Positions 24,648 through 59,115 of a DNA stretch of 64,000 nucleotides are shown in pieces; the stretch's first letter is position 1, and each line of letters starts with the position of its first letter. Both the position numbers and the translations under genes were made by a program. The notes beneath the pieces are model-generated. The model did no database searches. It saw only the letters and a list, made by a program, of their open reading frames with translations, and was not told the origin of the DNA. Source of the stretch: Methylobacterium dankookense (GTDB lineage Bacteria; Pseudomonadota; Alphaproteobacteria; Rhizobiales; Beijerinckiaceae); assembly GCF_902141855.1 (NCBI RefSeq), contig NZ_CABFVH010000007.1, positions 1 through 64,000 of the forward strand. Reading direction: 5' to 3'.

Positions 24648-26894
24648 TCAAGCCCCGAACCGCTCGAATTTCGGGAAGCTGCGGGTCATCAGGCTGCCGG
24701 CGTCGGCGCGGTGGCCCATCCATTTCTCCAGCATCTGCTGGTTGGCGAGCCGGCTCTGGCCGGCGCTGTCGCGCCAGGGCAGGCCCTCGGCCAGGGTGAA
24801 GACCTGGGCCGCGGCGAGCGCGGTCTGGCGGCAGCGCTGCAGGCGCACGCCCTTGCCGCGGGCAAGCTCCGACAGCTCGGTGACGGGGAAGACCAGAAGC
24901 AGCTTGTCGGTGCTGCACGCGGCGACATGGTCGCCCTCGGCCGGCACCAGGATCACGGCCTTGGCGTCCCCGTCGAGGCCGAGCACGCCCTTGCCCTTGC
25001 GCGTGTTGGCGACGACCGCGTCGGCCGGGGCGATGAAGCCGCGCCCGTCCGAGCCCGCGATGAGCAGCTTGCTCTCGGGCTTGTAGGGCAGCGCGGCCAC
25101 CACCTCGGTGCCGTCGTCGAGATCGACCATCAGCCGGACCGGGTCGCCGAAGCCGCGCCCGCCCGGCAGCTTCGAGGCCTCGATGGTGAAGACCTTGCCG
25201 TTGGAGGCCAGGAGCAGGATCTTGGCCGTGGTCTCGCTCGGGAAGGCGATCTTGAGCGCGTCGTCGCCCTTGAAGGCGACGCCCGAGAGATCGGCGACAT
25301 GGCCCTTGAGCGCGCGGATCCAGCCCTTCTCCGAGACGATCACGGTGATCGGCTCGCGCTCGACCAGCGCCGCGGTGAAATCGACGCCGGCGGTGTCGGG
25401 CGGGTTCTCCAGGGTGGTGCGGCGGCGGCCGAGCTTGGTCTCGGGGCCGAAGGTCTTCTTCACGGCGCGGATCTGGGCCTGCACCGTCTTCCACTGCTTC
25501 TCGTCCGAGCCGAGAAGCTCCTCGATCTCCGCCTTCTCGGCCGTCAGGGCCTCGAACTCGCGCTTCAGCTCCATCTCCTCCAGCTTGCGCAGGGAGCGCA
25601 GGCGGGTGTCGAGGATGGCGTTGGCCTGGATCTCGGTCAGCGTGAACCGGGCGATGAGCGCGGCCTTCGGCTCGTCCTCCTCGCGGATGATGCGGATGAC
25701 CTCGTCGAGGTCGAGATAGACGATGAGCAGGCCGCCGAGGATCTCCAGGCGCCGCTCGATTTGGCCGAGGCGGAAGCGGGAGCGGCGCTGGAGCACCACG
25801 CGGCGATGGTCGACCCACTGCCTCAGGCACTCGGCGAGACCGATCACCCGCGGCACGAGTCCGTCGACCAGCACGTTGAGGTTCAGCGGGATCCGCGCTT
25901 CCAGCTCGGTGAGCCGGAACAGCGATTCCATCAGGATGACCGGATCGACGCTGCGCGAGCGCGGCTCCAGCACGACGCGCACATCCTCCGCCGATTCGTC
26001 GCGCACGTCGGCGAGCAGCGGCAGCTTCTTCTCCTGAAGCAGCTCGGCCATCTTCTCGATGAGCCGGCTCTTCGGCACGCCGTAGGGAATCTCGGTGACG
26101 ACGATGTTCCAGGTGCCGCGGCCGAGTTCCTCCTTGGCCCAGCGGGCGCGCACGCGGAAGGCGCCGCGGCCGGTGCGATAGGCCTCGGCGATGCTCTCGG
26201 CGGAATCCACGAGGATGCCGCCGGTCGGGAAGTCCGGCCCCTGGACGAAGCGGCCGAGCTGGGCCGAGGTCGCCTCGGGATGGCTGATCAGGTAGAGCGC
26301 CGCGTCGCAGAGCTCGGCCGCGTTGTGCGGCGGGATCGAGGTCGCCATGCCGACCGCGATGCCCTGGCTGCCATTGGCCAGGAGGTTCGGGAAGGCCGCC
26401 GGCAGGACGATCGGCTCCTCCTTCTCCCCGTTATAGGAGGGCCGGAAATCGACCGTGTCCTCGTCGATCCCGTCGAGGAGCAGGCGGGCGACCTCGGTGA
26501 GGCGCGCCTCGGTGTAGCGGTAGGCCGCCGGGCCGTCGCCGTCGATATTGCCGAAATTGCCCTGGCCATCGACCAGCGGATAGCGTTGCGCGAAGTCCTG
26601 GGAGAGCCGCACCAGCGCGTCGTAGATCGCCTGGTCGCCGTGCGGATGGAAATCGCCCATCACGTCGCCGACGATCTTGGCGCATTTCTTGTGCGCGGTG
26701 TTCGGGTCGAGCCGCAGCAGGCGCATGCCGTAGAGGATGCGGCGATGCACCGGCTTCAGGCCGTCGCGCGCATCCGGCAGGGCACGGTGCATGATCGTGG
26801 AGAGCGCGTAGGCGAGGTAGCGCTCTTCCAGCGCGGATTTCAGCTCAACGCTCTCGATGCCGTCGCCGGACGGCGGCTCGAAGGGCTGTCCCAT
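24648..26894 (-). CDS. parC: DNA topoisomerase IV subunit A
   Basis: A 748-residue type IIA topoisomerase subunit that decatenates daughter chromosomes together with ParE. The winged-helix region has HRRILYGM and the catalytic tyrosine is Tyr127 in [12 protein letters not shown]. The GDFHPHGD segment (residues 80-87) is the quinolone-determining region. The C-terminal domain (from about residue 480) shows the degenerate beta-blades of ParC and no GyrA box. No parE is in the window. It precedes recO on the same strand, 47 bases downstream of the recO side. Confidence 0.93.
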
Positions 26895-26941
26895 GACGGC
26901 TCCAACTTCACTGATTCAGGCGGAACATAACACGAACATGC

Positions 26942-29763: not shown

Positions 29764-32700
29764 TCAGTTCACCTCCACCTGCACCACGCCCGGCACCGCG
29801 CGCAGCGCCCCGGCGATGGCGGGCGTCGCCTGGTACTTGCCGGGCAGGCGCACCTCGACCTCGCTGGCGCCGTCGAGCATCAGGATCAGCGAGACCTCGC
29901 CCTCGCCGCGCAGGCCGAGCTGCTTCTGCACGGCCGGGATCGGGCGCTCGTCGCGCAGATAGATGCGCATGCCCTTCTGGTAGCGGGCCACCGCCGCGTC
30001 GAGCGGTTCCGCCGTCTGGATGCGGGCGCGCACGTCCTCGCCCTCCAGGTTCGCCTGGAGCTGGAGCACCAGCGGCTTCCCGGGTTCGAGGATGTCCCGG
30101 TAATGGCCGAGCCCTTCCGAGAAGATGATCGCCTCGAAATGGCCGGTCTGGTCCGAGAGCGTGACGATGCCGAGCTTGTTGCCGCTCTTGGTGCGCCGCT
30201 CCGAGCGGTCGAGCACGGAGGCCGCAACCCGCCCGACGCTGGTGGTGCCGGCGCGGACCGAGCGGCAGAACTCGGCCCAGCTCTGCACGCGCAGCTTGCC
30301 GAGCAGGTCGCCGTACTCGTCGAGCGGGTGGCCGGAGACGAAGAAGCCGATCGCGGCGTATTCCCGCTTCAGCTTGTCGGCCATCGGCCAGAGTTCGTGG
30401 GGTGGAATGCGGAGCGAGACCGTGTCCGAGGCGACGCCGCCGAACATGTCGCCGATGCCGGTCGATTCTGCCTCGGCCGCGCCCTGGGCCAGCTTCATCA
30501 TCGGCTCGATCGCCGCGAAGGCGCGGGCGCGGTCCGGCTCGATGCAGTCCAGGGCGCCGGCCTGGACGAGGCTTTCCAGCACGCGCTTGTTCACGGCGCG
30601 CGGGTTGAGGCGCCGGGCGAGGCAGGCGAGATCCTTGAACGGTTTGGTCCCGCGCGCCTGCACGATGGAGCGCACCGCCTCGCGGCCGACGCCCTTGATG
30701 GCGGCGAGCGCGTAGCGGATGCGGCCCTGATGCACCTCGAAGACCTCGCCGGAGGTGTTGATCGAGGGCGGATCGACCGGGATCTTGAGGCGCTGCGCGT
30801 CCTGGCGGAATTCGGCGAGCTTGTCGGTGTTGTCGATGTCGAGCGTCATCGCCGCGGCGAGGAACTCGACCGGGTAATTCGCCTTCAGATAGCCGGTCTG
30901 GTAGGTCAGCAGCGCGTAGGCCGCCGCGTGGCTCTTGTTGAAGCCGTAATCGGCGAACTTCGCGAGCAGGTCGAAGATCTCGTCGGCCTTGGCCTTGGTC
31001 AGCTCGCGCTCGACGCAGCCCTTCACGAAGCGCTCGCGCTGCGCATCCATCTCGGCGCGGATCTTCTTGCCCATGGCGCGGCGGAGCATGTCGGCCTCGC
31101 CGAGCGTGTAGCCCGCGAGCACCTTGGCGATCTCCATCACCTGCTCCTGGTAGACGATGATGCCGAAGGTCTCCTTCAGCATCGGCTCCAGCTTCGGGTG
31201 CGGATACCAATTGGCCTCGTTGCCGGCGTCGCGGCCGAGCTTGCGCTCGCAATAGACCGGGATGTTGGCCATCGGGCCCGGGCGATAGAGCGCCACCAGC
31301 GCGATGATGTCCTCGAAACGGTCGGCCTGCATCTCGCAGAGCGCCTTGCGCATGCCCGCCGATTCCACCTGGAACACGCCGACCGTCTCGCCCCGGCCCA
31401 TCGGCTTGTAGGTGTCCTCGTTGTCAAGCGGCAGCGAGGCCAGGTCGATGTCGATGCTGCGCTGCTTGAGGAGGTCCGTGCAGCAGCGCAGCATGGTGAG
31501 CGTCTTGAGGCCGAGGAAGTCGAACTTCACCAGCCCCGCCTGCTCGACCCACTTCATGTTGAACTGGGTCACCCGCATGCCCGTCTTCGGGTCTCGGTAG
31601 AGCGGCACCAGCTCCTCGAGGGGCCGGTCGCCGATCACCACGCCCGCGGCGTGGGTCGAGGCGTGGCGGTGCAGGCCTTCGAGCTTCTTCGAGATCTCCA
31701 TGAGCCGGGCCACCACCGGCTCGTCCTCGATGGCCGATTGCAGCTTCGGCTCGCCCTCGATGGCCTGGGCCAGCGTCACGGGGTTGGCCGGGTTCTGCGG
31801 CACCAGCTTCGTCAGCTTGTCGACCTGCCCGTAGGGCATCTCCAGCACGCGGCCGACGTCGCGCAGCACGCCGCGGGCGAGCAACGTGCCGAAGGTGATG
31901 ATCTGCGCGACCTGCTCCTCGCCGTAGCGGCGCTGGACGTACTGGATCACGCGCTCGCGGCCTTCGACGCAGAAGTCGATGTCGAAATCCGGCATCGAGA
32001 CGCGCTCAGGGTTGAGGAAGCGCTCGAACAGCAGGCCGAAGCGGAGCGGGTCGAGATCGGTGATGAGGAGCGACCACGCCACCAGCGAGCCGGCGCCCGA
32101 GCCGCGGCCGGGCCCGACCGGGATGTCGTGGGCCTTGGCCCACTTGATGAAGTCCGAGACGATCAGGAAATAGCCCGGGAACTTCATCTTGACGATGACG
32201 TCGAGCTCGAAGGCTAGACGCTCGCGGTATTGCTGCTCGGTGAAGCCCGGCGCCGGCCCGTGCTTGGCGAGCCGCGCCTCGAGGCCGGCCTCGGCCTGCC
32301 GGCGCAGCTCCGTCGGCTCGTCGGCGGAGATCGTCTCGGCGACGGCGGTCGTCGCCTCGGCGGCGAGCGCCGCACCTTGCGCCTCCTGGCTCTCGGCGAG
32401 GCCCTCCGGCGCGGCCGAGCCGAAATTCGGCAGGATGGGCTTGCGGGTGCGCACGCGGTAGGCGCAGCGCATGGCGATCTCGACGCTGGCCTGGAGCGCG
32501 TCCGGCAGGTCGCGGAACAGCTCCGCCATCTCCGCCCGCGTCTTGAAAGCGTGGCGCGGGGTCAGCTTGCGGCGGCGGTCGTCGGAGACGACGCGGCCCT
32601 CCGCGATCGCCAGCAGCGCGTCGTGCGCGTCGTAGTCGCCGGGCTTGCCGAAGAAGGGCTCGTTCGTCGCGACGAGGGAGAGACCCTGCGCCTCGGCGAG

Positions 32701-33294
32701 GTCGATCAGGCCGTCCTCGATCCGGCGCTCATCGTCGAGCCCGTGCCGCTGGATCTCGACATAGAGCCTGTCCTCGCCGAAGGCCGATGCCAGCCGGGCG
32801 AGCCGCGCCTGCGCGAGGTCGCGCCGCCCCGCCCTCAGCGCCGTGTCGAGGGGGCCGGTCAGGCCGCCGGTGAGCGCGATGAGGCCGCGCCCCGATTCCA
32901 TGAGCGCCTCGGCCGCCACCCGCGGCGCCTCGCCGAGAGGCGTGTCGAAATAGGCCCGGCTGCCGAGGCGCAGCAGGTTGCCGTAGCCCTCCTCGTCCTG
33001 CGCGAGCAGCACGATCGGAGCGGCGGGGACACCGCCGCGCCCCATCGGGTCGGCCGCCTCGAAGGTCACGGCGAGCTGGATTCCGGCGATCGGCTGGATG
33101 CCGGAGCCCGCCGCCTTCTCCGAGAATTCGAGCGCCCCGAACAGGTTGTTGGTGTCGGTGAGCGCGAGCGCCGGCTGCCGGTCGGCGGCCGCCGCCTTCA
33201 CGAGGTCGCCGACCTTCAGGGCGCCCTCGAGCAGGGAATAGGACGAGTGGACGTGGAGGTGGACGAAGCCGACCTCCTTGAGCTGACGCGCCAT
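29764..33294 (-). CDS. dnaE: DNA polymerase III subunit alpha (DnaE1)
   Basis: The replicative polymerase, 1,176 residues. The N-terminal PHP domain begins with VHLHVHSSYSLLEGA. The catalytic aspartates are in MPDFDIDFCVEGRERV at about residue 435, with GRGSGAGSLVAW shortly before. The fingers, helix-hairpin-helix and OB-fold regions follow (LLTYQTGYLKANYPVEFLAA; OB region near 1000-1090). ATG 33294 starts MARQLKEVGFVHLHVH, the standard opening; the longer in-frame extension of 34 residues is not conserved-looking. A GAAC-N7-GAAC motif lies about 160 bases upstream. Confidence 0.94.
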   Translation of the reverse strand: MARQLKEVGFVHLHVHSSYSLLEGALKVGDLVKAAAADRQPALALTDTNNLFGALEFSEKAAGSGIQPIAGIQLAVTFEAADPMGRGGVPAAPIVLLAQDEEGYGNLLRLGSRAYFDTPLGEAPRVAAEALMESGRGLIALTGGLTGPLDTALRAGRRDLAQARLARLASAFGEDRLYVEIQRHGLDDERRIEDGLIDLAEAQGLSLVATNEPFFGKPGDYDAHDALLAIAEGRVVSDDRRRKLTPRHAFKTRAEMAELFRDLPDALQASVEIAMRCAYRVRTRKPILPNFGSAAPEGLAESQEAQGAALAAEATTAVAETISADEPTELRRQAEAGLEARLAKHGPAPGFTEQQYRERLAFELDVIVKMKFPGYFLIVSDFIKWAKAHDIPVGPGRGSGAGSLVAWSLLITDLDPLRFGLLFERFLNPERVSMPDFDIDFCVEGRERVIQYVQRRYGEEQVAQIITFGTLLARGVLRDVGRVLEMPYGQVDKLTKLVPQNPANPVTLAQAIEGEPKLQSAIEDEPVVARLMEISKKLEGLHRHASTHAAGVVIGDRPLEELVPLYRDPKTGMRVTQFNMKWVEQAGLVKFDFLGLKTLTMLRCCTDLLKQRSIDIDLASLPLDNEDTYKPMGRGETVGVFQVESAGMRKALCEMQADRFEDIIALVALYRPGPMANIPVYCERKLGRDAGNEANWYPHPKLEPMLKETFGIIVYQEQVMEIAKVLAGYTLGEADMLRRAMGKKIRAEMDAQRERFVKGCVERELTKAKADEIFDLLAKFADYGFNKSHAAAYALLTYQTGYLKANYPVEFLAAAMTLDIDNTDKLAEFRQDAQRLKIPVDPPSINTSGEVFEVHQGRIRYALAAIKGVGREAVRSIVQARGTKPFKDLACLARRLNPRAVNKRVLESLVQAGALDCIEPDRARAFAAIEPMMKLAQGAAEAESTGIGDMFGGVASDTVSLRIPPHELWPMADKLKREYAAIGFFVSGHPLDEYGDLLGKLRVQSWAEFCRSVRAGTTSVGRVAASVLDRSERRTKSGNKLGIVTLSDQTGHFEAIIFSEGLGHYRDILEPGKPLVLQLQANLEGEDVRARIQTAEPLDAAVARYQKGMRIYLRDERPIPAVQKQLGLRGEGEVSLILMLDGASEVEVRLPGKYQATPAIAGALRAVPGVVQVEVN

Positions 33295-33452: not shown

Positions 33453-33467
33453 GAACAAGTCGGGAAC
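33453..33467 (-). promoter_or_regulatory. Second GTTC-N7-GTTC motif, possible LexA box
   Basis: GAACAAGTCGGGAAC on the plus strand has exactly seven bases between the repeats. It lies between the 34-codon gene and dnaE. The flanks lack the A/T-rich promoter context of the box at 33637-33651, and one or two chance matches per window are expected. Confidence 0.3.
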
Positions 33468-33499: not shown

Positions 33500-33604
33500 T
33501 TAAGGGACCGGCGCCAAGGCTATGCCCCAGGCCGCCACCGACGCCGTGAGGAGACCGAAGGCCATGAACTCCGCCATGCCGGTCAGGACGATCCGCTTCA
33601 ACAT
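33500..33604 (-). CDS. Putative SOS-induced 34-residue inner-membrane peptide
   Basis: A very short gene encoding a peptide with a basic start (MLKRIVLTG) and one membrane helix (MAEFMAFGLLTASVAAWGIA), then APVP. Translation is well supported by AGGAGG eight bases before the ATG. Transcription is supported by a promoter with a LexA operator between its -35 and -10 boxes. Caulobacter SidA, a LexA-controlled 29-residue membrane peptide that blocks division after DNA damage, is the functional precedent; sequence relatedness is not claimed. It is on the same strand as dnaE, 205 bases upstream. Confidence 0.65.
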   Translation of the reverse strand: MLKRIVLTGMAEFMAFGLLTASVAAWGIALAPVP

Positions 33605-33620
33605 CTCGGCTGCCTCCTGA

Positions 33621-33661
33621 AGAACAAAACCAGTATGTTCATGTTTTGTTCTGAAGCAAAG
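33621..33661 (-). promoter_or_regulatory. LexA-box promoter of the 34-codon gene
   Basis: The minus strand carries TTGCTT (-35, 33661-33656), a 17-base spacer and ATACTG (-10, 33638-33633). GTTC-ATGTTTT-GTTC (plus strand 33637-33651) is the alphaproteobacterial LexA site and fills the spacer. A perfect 10-bp inverted repeat AGAACAAAAC/GTTTTGTTCT (33621-33630 and 33643-33652) overlaps it. Of the remaining bases 33662-33955, only ACCTCATCCTGAGGT (33879-33893) is notable, a short palindrome like intergenic repeats of this group. Confidence 0.7.
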
Positions 33662-33955: not shown

Positions 33956-34663
33956 TCAGTCGAGCTGGCGGATGAGCCCATCCTGGATCGTCACCCTGCG
34001 GTCCATGCGGGCGGCGAGTTCCATGTTGTGGGTGGCGACGAGCGCCGCGAGCCCGGAGGCGCGCACCAGCGCCAGCAGAATGCCGAAGACGTGGCCCGCG
34101 GTCTGCGGATCGAGATTGCCGGTGGGCTCGTCGGCCAGCAGCAGGCGCGGCCCGTTGGCCACCGCGCGGGCGATGGCGACGCGCTGCTGCTCGCCGCCCG
34201 AAAGCTCGGCCGGGCGATGGATCAGCCGGTCCTTGAGCCCGAGGAAGGAGAGCAGCTCCGTGGCCCGCGTCCGCGCCTCCGCCTGCGGCAGGCCGCGGAT
34301 GAGCTGGGGCATCACCACGTTCTCGAGCGCCGAGAATTCCGGCAGCAGGTGGTGGAACTGGTAGACGAAGCCCATCTCCTCGCGCCGGAACCGGGTGCGC
34401 TCGGCATCGCTCATCGCCGCGGTCGGATGGCCGCCGACATAGACCTCGCCGCCATCCGGCCGCTCCAGCAGGCCGGCGAGGTGCAGCAGGGTCGACTTGC
34501 CGGCGCCCGAGGGCGCGACGAGGGCGACGATCTCCCCCGGCCAGATCGCGAGGTCGGCGCCGCGCAGGATCTCCAGCGCGCCCTCGGCCTGGGCGTAGCG
34601 CCGCTCCACGCGGGCGAAGAACAGGGCCGGCACCGGTTGGGCGCCGGCGGCATCTGCGCTCAT
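33956..34663 (-). CDS. lolD: Lipoprotein release ABC ATPase LolD
   Basis: A 235-residue ATPase driving extraction of outer-membrane lipoproteins from the inner membrane. Walker A is APSGAGKST at residues 50-58, the signature LSGGEQQR and Walker [13 protein letters not shown]. The Lol/MacB-type Q-loop [20 protein letters not shown] is characteristic of LolD. It starts 19 bases after the partner permease gene and is transcribed with it. Confidence 0.92.
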
Positions 34664-44272: not shown

Positions 44273-46383
44273 CAGTGGGCACCTTTGGGCAGGCCGGTCA
44301 TCAGGTACCAGCTGATCAGGCCGGCGACGCCGATGAGCATCACGAAGGCGTAGTGGTAGACGTAGCCGGTCTGGAGGCGGACCACGCCGCGGGTCACGTC
44401 CACGACGCGGGCAGCGATGCCGTCAGGCCCGGCGCCGTCGATGGCGCGGCCATCGACCTGCTTCCAGAGGAAGATGCCGAAATCCTTGGCCGGGCGGACG
44501 AAGATCCGGTCGTAGATCTCGTCGAAGTACCACTTGTTGAGCAGGAACCGGTACAGGACCGGCTGCTGCTCGGCCAGGGCGTGGGGCAGGCCCGGCCGGC
44601 GGATATACATCCAGAAGGCGACGAGGAAGCCGAGAACCAGCATCACGAACGGCGACAGCGAGACCCAGCGCGGCGCGTTGTGGATCTCGTGCATGATGTG
44701 GTTGTCGGGCCCATGCGCCAGGGCGTGGCCCCAGAAGGCGTCCATGCCGTCGCCGATGAACTTGTTCTTGAAGACGAGGCCCGCGAAGAGCGCGCCGACC
44801 GCGAGCACGGCGAGCGGGATCGTCATCACGAGCGGGCTCTCGTGCGGCGCGTGCGGACCGTGGTCGTGATGCTCGATGGCGCTGTGCGAGGCGGGCTCGA
44901 CATCATGGCCGTGATCGTTGTGGGCGACGCCCTCGTGATGGCCGGGCGCGCCGTCCGCCTGGTGCGCGGTCGCGGCATGCGCCACCGCCGGGGCGTGGTG
45001 GTCGTCATGACCATGCGCATCGTGCCCATGCGCGCCGTGGCCGGCCCAGCGGGCCGGGCCCTCGAAGGTCATGAAGAACAGGCGCCAGGAGTAGAACGAG
45101 GTGAAGAAGGCGGCGATCACGGTGGCGAAGAAGGCGAGCGTGTGCCCGGGCCGGGTCGACATGTAGGCCGCCTCGATGATGGCGTCCTTCGAGTAGTAGC
45201 CGGCCGTGAAGGGGAAGCCGATCAGCGCGAGCGTGCCGATCGCCATCATCGCCGTGGTGAAGGGGATGTAGGGACGCAGCGCGCCCATGTTCCGCATGTC
45301 CTGCTCATGGTGCATCGCGTGGATGACCGAGCCGGCGCCGAGGAACAGCAGCGCCTTGAAGAAGGCGTGCGTGAAGAGGTGGAAGATGCCCGCCGAGTAG
45401 GCGCCGACGCCGAGCGCCACGAACATGTAGCCGAGCTGCGAGCAGGTCGAGTAGGCGATGACGCGCTTGATGTCGTTCTGCACGAGGCCGACGGTCGCCG
45501 CGAAGAAGGCGGTGATGCCGCCGATCACGGTGACCACGATCAGCGCGTTCGGAGCGAGTTCGAAGAGCGGCGACAGGCGCGCGACCATGAACACGCCGGC
45601 GGTGACCATGGTGGCGGCGTGGATGAGCGCCGAGACCGGGGTCGGGCCCTCCATCGCGTCCGGCAGCCAGGTGTGCAGCAGGAACTGCGCCGACTTGCCC
45701 ATCGCGCCCATGAACAGGAGCAGGCAGGCGAGCGTGAGCGCGTGCCAGTCGTAGCCGAGGAAGTGGAAGGTCGCGTCCTTGAACTCGTTCACGCGCGGGA
45801 AGATGCCGTCGAAGGCGACCGAGCCGAACAGCACGAAGACGAGGAAGATGCCGAGCGAGAAGCCGAAATCGCCGACGCGGTTGACGATGAAGGCCTTCAT
45901 CGCGGCGGCGTTGGCCGAGGGCTTCTCGTACCAGAAGCCGATCAGGAGGTAGGAGGCGAGGCCGACGCCCTCCCAGCCGAAGAACATCTGCACGAGGTTG
46001 TCGGCCGTCACCAGCATCAGCATGGCGAAGGTGAACAGCGACAGGTAGGCGAAGAAGCGCGGCCGGTGCGGATCCTCCTCCATGTAGCCGATGGAGTAGA
46101 GGTGCACGAGGGTCGAGACCGAGGTGACGACGACGAGCATCACCCGGGTGAGCGTGTCGATCCGGAAGGCCCAGTCGACGGTCAGGCCGCCGGCCGTGAA
46201 CCAGGTCGCGACCTGCACGCGGGTCGCGTGCTCGCCATCGATGAACACGCCCCAGGCGATCAGCGCGGCGAAGGCGAGGCACGCCGTGGTGACGTACTCG
46301 CTCGCCCGCGCGCCGATGAAGCGCCCGAACAGGCCGGCGATCAGGGCGCCGATGAGCGGGAAGAAGACGATCGCGTGATACAT
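44272..46383 (-). CDS. nuoL: NADH-quinone oxidoreductase subunit L with His-rich loop
   Basis: A 703-residue distal antiporter-like subunit with the long lateral helix at the C-terminus. Family motifs: [49 protein letters not shown] and [17 protein letters not shown]. It is longer than E. coli NuoL (613). Part of the excess is an insert at residues 449-514 containing 20 histidines ([13 protein letters not shown] and similar) within a loop between helices. Such an insert may bind zinc, nickel or protons, or may be neutral. It precedes nuoM with a one-base overlap. Confidence 0.94.
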
Positions 46384-57357: not shown

Positions 57358-59115
57358 ATGCGTCCGCTGATCGAACTCCTGCGCGCCCTGTCGCCGGCGG
57401 ATCGCAGGCGCCTGCTGCTCATCGCCATCGGGCTCGCGGGCGCGGGCCTGCTGGAGGTGGTCGGCGTCGCCGCGGTGATCCCGTTCCTTACGCTCGTCGG
57501 CGACCCGGGCGCCGCCGACAGGCTGCCCTGGCTCGGCGCCTGGCGCGACGCGCTCGGCCTCGCCGAGCCGCGCACCTTCCTGCTGGCGACGGGTATCGCG
57601 GCGCTCGCCGCGATTCTCATCACCGCGGTCGCCAATGCCGGGCTCACCTACGCTCAACTCCTGTTCACGCATCGGGTCGGCTACGGCTTCGCCCGCCGCT
57701 TGCTCTTCCGCTACATCGCGCGGGAGCGGCTGTTCTTCGCGCAGGCCAACAGCGCGGAACTCGCCAAGAACGTGCTCAGCGAGACGGACCGCCTCGTGGT
57801 CGGCGTGCTGACGCCGCTGACCGTGATCGCCTCGCGCGTCGTGTCGGCGCTCGCCGTGATCCTCTTCCTCGTCGCCTACGCGCCGCGCCTCGCCCTGGTG
57901 CTCGGCGGCGGTTTCGGCGGCCTCTATGTCGGCATCTTCCTGTTCGTGCGCACGCGCCTCGCCCGGATCGGCGCGCGGGCGGTCGCCGACAACGAGATGC
58001 GCTTCCGGGTGGTGCAGGAGACGCTCGGCGCCCTGACCGAGCTCAAGCTCTACGGGCGCGCCGAGCGCTTCGCGAGCCGGTTCGACGGCCCCGCCCGCGC
58101 CTATGCCGGCGACAGCGCGGCGAGCCTCGTCACCGGGCAGATGCCGCGCTTCGTCATCGAGGCGCTGGCCTTCGGCGGCGTCATCGTCGTCGTGCTGTTC
58201 GCCCTCGCCCAGGGGCTCGACACCGCCGGCATCCTGCCGCTGCTGGGTCTCTTCGCCTTCGCCGGCTACCGCATGCTGCCGGCCTTCCAGAACATCTTCA
58301 ACTCCCTGGCGCTGCTCCGATTCCATCTGCCCGGCGTGCGCCTGATCATGGACGAGCTGCGCGGCGAGGCCGCTGCGCCCCCGCGCGGCCCGGAGCGTCT
58401 GCCGTTCCGCGATTCGATCCGCTTCGAGACGGTGGGCTTCGATTACGAGCCCGGGCGGGCGGCGCTCTCAAGCATCGACCTCACCATCCCGGCCGGCGCG
58501 ACCATCGGGCTCGTCGGCCGCACCGGCTCGGGCAAGTCCACCCTCGTCGGCCTGCTGCTGGGCCTGCTCAGCCCCGGCGAGGGCCGGATCCGCGTGGACG
58601 GCCTGCCGCTCGGGCCCGAGAACCTGCCGGCCTGGCAGAACCACATCGGTTACGTTCCGCAGGAGGTGTTCCTGATCGACGGCACCGTTGCCGAGAACAT
58701 CGCGCTCGGCCTCGATTCGCCAGACATGGAACGGGTCGAGCGGGCGGCGCGCGTCGCGGGGGCGCACGACTTCGTCGCGGCCCTTCCCGATGGCTACGCC
58801 GCACGGGTCGGGGAGCGCGGCTCGCGGCTCAGCGGCGGTCAGCGCCAGCGCATCGGCATCGCCCGCGCGCTCTACCATGAGCCCGACGTGCTGGTCTTCG
58901 ACGAGGCGACCTCGGCCCTCGACGGCGAGACGGAAGCGGCGGTGATGGCGGCCCTACGGCGTTTCGCGGGCGGGCGCACGCTCATCATGATCGCCCACCG
59001 CCTGACCAGCCTGGAGGGTGCCGACACGGTCCACGTGCTCGAAGGCGGCCGCATCGTCGCGTCAGGCCCCCTGCCCGCGGTGCTGCCGCATCTCGGCCCG
59101 TCGGCGGCCGCCTGA
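57358..59115 (+). CDS. ABC exporter (fused permease-ATPase)
   Basis: A 585-residue half-transporter with six N-terminal membrane helices (residues 15-320) and a C-terminal ATPase. Walker A is GRTGSGKST, the signature RLSGGQRQR, Walker B VLVFDEATSALD and the switch histidine MIAHRL. The membrane domain opening (GLLEVVGVAAVIPFLTLVGDP) is like that of PglK-type lipid-linked oligosaccharide flippases. It is probably a homodimer exporting a lipid, glycan carrier or drug; the substrate is unknown. ATG 57358 is preferred over TTG 57352. Confidence 0.87.
   Translation: MRPLIELLRALSPADRRRLLLIAIGLAGAGLLEVVGVAAVIPFLTLVGDPGAADRLPWLGAWRDALGLAEPRTFLLATGIAALAAILITAVANAGLTYAQLLFTHRVGYGFARRLLFRYIARERLFFAQANSAELAKNVLSETDRLVVGVLTPLTVIASRVVSALAVILFLVAYAPRLALVLGGGFGGLYVGIFLFVRTRLARIGARAVADNEMRFRVVQETLGALTELKLYGRAERFASRFDGPARAYAGDSAASLVTGQMPRFVIEALAFGGVIVVVLFALAQGLDTAGILPLLGLFAFAGYRMLPAFQNIFNSLALLRFHLPGVRLIMDELRGEAAAPPRGPERLPFRDSIRFETVGFDYEPGRAALSSIDLTIPAGATIGLVGRTGSGKSTLVGLLLGLLSPGEGRIRVDGLPLGPENLPAWQNHIGYVPQEVFLIDGTVAENIALGLDSPDMERVERAARVAGAHDFVAALPDGYAARVGERGSRLSGGQRQRIGIARALYHEPDVLVFDEATSALDGETEAAVMAALRRFAGGRTLIMIAHRLTSLEGADTVHVLEGGRIVASGPLPAVLPHLGPSAAA

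Follow-up and report, generated by a model that had tools for sequence, protein, structure and literature searches.

On the minus strand of the window, the whole 64-kb stretch of Methylobacterium DNA analysed here, a frame of 34 codons lies directly upstream of dnaE and behind a LexA-type operator. The question raised by this arrangement is whether the frame is a gene in its own right, coding for an SOS-induced inhibitor of cell division of the kind represented by SidA of Caulobacter, or a leader of the polymerase gene that follows it. The former is considered likely: the locus would carry a SidA ortholog, a gene for an SOS-induced single-helix division inhibitor acting on FtsW/FtsN.

The short gene and its operator

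The features of the locus are as follows.

33956..34663, minus strand: lolD-like ABC transporter ATPase (named by eye), upstream neighbour on the same strand
33654..33659, minus strand: -35 hexamer TTGCTT (direct reading)
33637..33651, minus strand: LexA-type operator GAACAAAACATGAAC, of the form GAAC-N7-GAAC (plus strand GTTCATGTTTTGTTC)
33631..33636, minus strand: -10 hexamer ATACTG, 17 bp from the -35 hexamer (direct reading)
33621..33652, no strand assigned: 10-bp inverted repeat AGAACAAAAC / GTTTTGTTCT, arms 33652-33643 and 33630-33621, overlapping the operator
33613..33618, minus strand: Shine-Dalgarno sequence AGGAGG, eight bases 5' of the ATG
33500..33604, minus strand: SidA-like peptide gene of 34 codons (ATG 33604-33602, coding 33604..33503, stop 33502..33500)
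33453..33467, minus strand: putative second box of LexA type, GTTCCCGACTTGTTC, in the gap that separates the peptide gene from dnaE
29764..33294, minus strand: dnaE (DNA polymerase III alpha), start taken at MARQLKEVGF

The product, MLKRIVLTGMAEFMAFGLLTASVAAWGIALAPVP (34 aa, read directly from the window), has an N-terminal KR followed by one hydrophobic helix. Its top 19-residue hydropathy is 1.85, starting at residue 13, and AlphaFold2 models a single helix over residues 2-30 with a mean pLDDT of 97; by hydropathy and model, the peptide has the features of a SidA-type product, namely about 30 residues and one predicted membrane helix. Three peptides submitted to Pfam and NCBIfam were assigned to no family (0 families). 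The 34-codon gene with AGGAGG eight bases from its ATG, as described in the first-pass annotation, is plainly seen on direct reading of the minus strand, and a purine-rich motif resembling a Shine-Dalgarno sequence is found in 99 of the 110 loci of the genus. A lolD-like match also occurs upstream in part of the more distant loci.

The spacer between the -35 and -10 hexamers covers 33653-33637 (17 bp), and since the last base of GAACAAAACATGAAC (33651-33637) directly adjoins the -10 hexamer, the operator is located inside the spacer. A strict sigma-70 promoter scan found no promoter at the peptide locus, and the promoter is claimed because of a footprint conserved in the 110 genus loci: the stretch from about -9 to +20 relative to the box is highly conserved, with a drop on either side and a consensus of TTTACA (-35), 17 bp and an A-rich hexamer with a final T. 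The arrangement TTGCTT-17-ATACTG with a LexA-type box in its spacer, proposed earlier from the window, is thus confirmed by direct reading, and its role as a promoter is supported by the footprint. The overlapping 10-bp inverted repeat noted at the same time does exist, but among the 110 loci of the genus its right arm was found in just 3, namely that of the window and those of the two relatives nearest to it. It is therefore lineage-specific and was rejected as a conserved operator.

The pattern GTTC-N7-GTTC occurs five times in the window against 0.89 expected, and 101 times genome-wide against 75 in the reversed control, so that a match to it is weak evidence by itself. The narrower form GTTC-N5-TT-GTTC, which ends in TTGTTC, was found 10 times genome-wide and 0 times in the reversed control, with two of the 10 falling in the window. 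Among these boxes, one precedes an ssb-like gene (L001; gene identified by eye) and another, at C19:19127, lies about 3.4 kb before the matched domain (C19:22584) of a second dnaE-type gene, presumably the site expected for the promoter of an imuA-imuB-dnaE2 cassette. A further one of the 10, GTTCTTAATTTGTTC, is located just 5' of a dnaB-like replicative helicase gene recognised by eye (L414, G000:C42:40341-40355). Within the window, GAACATAACACGAAC at 26923-26937 lies about 30 bases 5' of the start of a parC-like gene (26894..24648); judged by its sequence, this box is a possible further LexA target, acting on parC (topoisomerase IV subunit A, named by eye). Two more GTTC-N7-GTTC matches in the window are at 45547-45561 and 57757-57771. 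A box in the gap between the peptide gene and dnaE, as at 33453-33467, is present in 7 of 102 loci; those of the window and of its two nearest relatives (L039 and L040) are alike and the other four are different. Three further genus loci (L041, L042 and L043) have an additional, oppositely oriented LexA-type box within the 60 bases before the start codon.

Conservation in Methylobacterium and the relation to dnaE

The peptide is encoded in 110 of 111 genomes of the genus, the one miss being a genome that is 70% complete (G268); a second match in one genome (L139 of G234) was excluded from the set. The predicted operator, which at this level is the form taken by the LexA-controlled promoter of a SidA-type gene, is present as an exact GAAC-N7-GAAC in all 110 loci within the 120 bases upstream that were searched, beginning 45-62 bases before the start. 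It takes the form GAACAWA-N4-GAAC in 107 of these, while L121, L122 and L131 carry GAACGG-type boxes in the same setting. Residues E12, W26, A29 and L30 are invariant in the 107 aligned 34-mers and P32 is found in 106. These counts refer to the 107 rows that are 34 letters long, and in three of these rows the first letter is not M; three of the 110 peptides were trimmed to a non-ATG start because of longer N-termini. Among 686 close pairs pS is 0.268 and pN 0.055, and the resulting pN/pS of 0.20 indicates that the frame is read as protein and is under purifying selection; among 40 distant sequences pN/pS is 0.51, with pS saturated. Loss of the reading frame in relatives had been named in the first-pass annotation as grounds for giving up its reading, and the frame survived this test in 110 of 111 genomes, with the box in 110 of 110.

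A gene directly upstream of dnaE, which is the position expected of a SidA-type gene, is found in the window and in 102 of the 110 genus loci, and the corresponding slot in Caulobacter is the same. In these 102 loci dnaE follows as the next gene on the same strand after a gap of 98-232 bases (median 204), an arrangement in which co-transcription with dnaE is possible. The same adjacency favours a different reading, in which dnaE is the gene controlled by the LexA box, with more replicative polymerase made in the SOS response and with the short frame as a leader or upstream open reading frame (uORF) tuning dnaE translation. A dnaE gene has been reported as SOS-regulated in Caulobacter, with the copy unspecified and dnaE2 named apart in the available text (PMC3323433). 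Likewise, ribosome profiling and proteogenomics in Sinorhizobium meliloti identified sORF25, a small frame in the dnaE1 5' UTR; such frames were suggested as possible uORFs, and LexA, SOS and SidA do not appear in the accessible part of that paper (PMC10117765). Both the Caulobacter report and sORF25 may concern the SidA-like peptide gene itself.

Against a dnaE leader stand the purifying selection on the amino acid sequence and the loci in which the peptide gene and dnaE are apart. When 1.5 kb was read to either side of the gene, dnaE was missing at eight of the 110 loci, of which one (L075) ends near a contig edge. In the other seven (L012, L087-L090, L092 and L094) the box is retained throughout, and the peptides are identical or nearly so, so that these loci look like one clade. 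In the genome G008, assembled in three contigs, the peptide lies at C1:493231 and dnaE elsewhere, at C1:1848847, and the gene after the peptide is convergent, as judged by eye among overlapping frames; in the remaining six, dnaE could lie a little past 1.5 kb. Seven genomes with box and peptide and with dnaE absent within 1.5 kb indicate that the unit can stand without dnaE. Direct succession by dnaE thus holds in 102 of the 110 loci and fails in seven genomes, and the dnaE leader was rejected as the whole story; as an account of the locus it is considered unlikely.

Relatives in the order, the class and Caulobacter

Profile searches covered 248 genomes of the family and 397 of the order, and short frames were found in other genera, several of them beside dnaE and with LexA-type boxes. 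In the order, dnaE was matched in 120 of 121 genomes, and 89 upstream regions (L191-L279) were read, made up of the automatic loci and 60 of 90 others; as these were picked mostly in descending order of score, genomes with weak matches are under-represented. An exact box is present within 900 bp in 47 of the 89 regions. The order profile was built from 32 order peptides and seven from nearby genera, and the region of the G008 dnaE (L191) was set aside, leaving 88. A profile match at E<=0.05 was obtained in 47 of these 88 regions, spanning 24 of 46 families, a count that is partly circular because the 32 training peptides were drawn from the counted loci; 15 of the 47 matches are non-training members, some of them near copies of a training member. 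The remaining 41 of the 88 regions had no profile match at this threshold, and the best minus-strand frame reached E 8. Of the 47 matching regions, 38 have an exact box close to the frame, eight a box with one mismatch and one no box. In shuffled 190-bp stretches from the same loci exact boxes arise in 0.3% and boxes with one mismatch in 10%, so that the eight mismatch loci weigh little singly. Two regions of family f22 (L210 and L240) have exact boxes upstream of dnaE followed by 24-aa frames from an inner ATG, for example MIVLKESCALLVIALLVVSVGIIA, and these stand outside the profile count.

Outside the order, 88 class regions were sampled from 132 genomes (28 automatic loci and 60 mostly from larger genomes). 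An exact box occurs upstream of or across the dnaE start in 19 of the 88. Six have a profile match at E<=0.05 and 82 have none at that threshold, while several other boxed frames are similar and lower-scoring. Frames taken after boxes in the order, class and Caulobacterales scans include chance frames, and the counts rest on profile matches. A whole-genome search of 41 genomes, consisting of 39 previously matchless ones, G365 and G008, gave seven matches: three new peptides with exact boxes (L415, L416 and L417), the known peptide of G365 (L419), two matches without an exact box (L418 and L420) and one inside a 334-residue frame that is probably a chance match (L421). This search missed G008, which carries the peptide, and its misses do not therefore prove absence. 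The family peptide of L417 (G410:C16:19518-19607) is on a contig different from that of dnaE, and two exact boxes that overlap each other precede the match by 48 and 37 bases.

A PopZ-fragment search yielded 19 genomes of Caulobacterales type, with a dnaE locus in 18. A short peptide is encoded upstream of dnaE in 17 of the 18, the other locus (L391) being cut at a contig end. Fourteen of the peptides have the shared core at E<=0.05, and three from Asticcacaulis are MVSAVHNVLSFAAVAGFVVVMCHLMSLAA-like, with E values of 0.67-2.0. An exact LexA-type box was found within 900 bp in eight of the 18 loci and was absent from that interval in ten. In Caulobacter vibrioides OR37 (L402) the frame upstream of dnaE codes for 29 residues from an inner ATG, and SidA is described as a 29-residue inner-membrane SOS inhibitor that acts on FtsW (PMC4211646). 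The locus numbers given in the available portions of several papers place the two genes side by side: sidA is CCNA_02004 (PMC10769358), dnaE is CC1926 and recN CC1983 (PMC1839093), and recN is also ccna_02062 (PMC12700426), an offset of 79 nearby that puts dnaE at about CCNA_02003-02005, beside sidA. In its length and position, and by the locus numbers, the 29-residue Caulobacter peptide thus agrees with SidA, the letters of SidA being taken here from that position.

The Caulobacter and Methylobacterium peptides are linked through intermediates. With a held-out profile of the 32 order peptides, free of Caulobacter and of the genus, four Caulobacter peptides scored 14.6-17.7 bits (E 3e-4 to 3e-3); 13-15 of 2,765 background frames outscore them, in a background that includes family peptides, and the top 12 are peptides of the same family. 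Profile-profile comparison gave E 7.4e-6 for Methylobacterium against the order (score 23.9; best of 60 column shuffles 15.5) and E 9e-5 for the order against Caulobacter (score 19.0; best of 60 shuffles 12.1), the shuffle controls covering these two comparisons. Seven peptides from nearby genera (six of g32 and one of g18) form a bridge, matching Methylobacterium at E 1.8e-11 and the order at E 6.2e-9. The Methylobacterium and Caulobacter profiles gave no direct match (score 7.85), and the link between their sequences is transitive, through the order-level peptides. The window peptide itself scores 6.5 bits against the order profile (E 1), with 18 background frames equal or higher, and the 107 Methylobacterium peptides have a median of 0.9 bits, with 26 of the 107 beating 99% of the background. 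Short hydrophobic helices can also arise by convergence. Orthology with SidA is regarded as likely because position, operator, size and the chain of profiles come together, and not from sequence alone.

The strong divergence of the Methylobacterium peptides, their missing direct match to the Caulobacter profile, the invariant E12 within the helix and the WAxALxP tail would also suit an SOS-induced member of this family of membrane peptides that has come to act on another membrane protein or a protease, so that division is no longer stopped in these bacteria. The recurrence of operator, size, position and helix type across the order argues against such a shift, which is considered improbable, more so than the dnaE leader.

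Predicted function and known systems

The likeness to SidA proposed in the first-pass annotation emerges stronger than it was stated there, as the slot upstream of dnaE in Caulobacter encodes a 29-residue peptide, connected through an intermediate profile and accompanied by an exact box in 8 of 18 loci. The Methylobacterium gene and SidA have in common a product of about 30 residues with one hydrophobic helix and a basic N-terminus, a LexA-type box and a position directly upstream of dnaE. Unlike the Caulobacter peptide, that of Methylobacterium is five residues longer, has the invariant E12 and W26 and ends in the WAxALxP tail.

If the gene is a SidA ortholog, LexA bound to GAAC-N7-GAAC between the -35 and -10 hexamers would block RNA polymerase as long as the DNA is undamaged. 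On DNA damage, RecA would promote LexA cleavage and the short mRNA would be made. The 34-residue peptide would then enter the inner membrane as one helix, its N-terminus probably inside, and by analogy with SidA may bind FtsW (and FtsN) once the divisome is assembled, so that septal wall synthesis would be held inactive until repair and division would be arrested. SidA has been proposed to keep the FtsW/FtsI/FtsN complex inactive (PMC4211646), and in low-confidence models presented in the available text of a 2026 paper, SidA, ChiZ and SosA contact FtsW, with the helix against TM7 (PMC13396833).

Other small membrane proteins of the damage response share some of these features. DidA of Caulobacter is likewise a damage-induced single-helix division inhibitor, but it has 71 residues, is induced independently of SOS via DriD and binds FtsN (PMC4211646), whereas the gene described here has a LexA-type box and 34 codons; identity with DidA was rejected on these grounds. 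YneA, SosA and ChiZ of Gram-positive bacteria are also damage-induced small membrane proteins acting late in division, YneA and ChiZ differing in their LysM domains, and the likeness is one of logic (PMC13396833).

The SOS response of E. coli also controls small membrane peptides with another mode of action, among them TisB. A further member of this group, DinQ, is regulated by SOS, crosses the membrane once, is toxic and has antisense RNAs (PMC3567139). The size, single helix and predicted SOS control of the Methylobacterium peptide would fit a LexA-controlled toxic peptide of the TisB/DinQ type, which would lower the membrane potential and slow growth or favour persistence, with no inhibition of the divisome. 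TisB and DinQ are marked by toxin-type action with antisense RNA. The presence of the SidA candidate in the Caulobacter slot upstream of dnaE weakens a reading of the TisB/DinQ type, to which only a small probability is given.

A search of the open-licence literature found no paper in which an SOS inhibitor of division is named for Methylobacterium or for the surrounding order, and among the titles and abstract openings available there, none described a SidA-like peptide family upstream of dnaE. On balance, and with less assurance than for the locus itself, the LexA box, the gene of about 30 codons for a membrane helix and dnaE are taken to form an ancestral alphaproteobacterial SOS checkpoint of which SidA is the studied member. 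By the same reading, this checkpoint would have escaped notice because so short a gene is not annotated and because the operator was credited to dnaE.

The distribution described above hints that a brake of the SidA type is far wider in the alphaproteobacteria than was found reported. If the peptides are SidA orthologs, the checkpoint would be testable through one small gene in many laboratory alphaproteobacteria, and the sequence family would provide natural variants with which to map the contact with FtsW. Published entries for a 'LexA-regulated dnaE' would likewise need to be re-read as referring to a separate gene.
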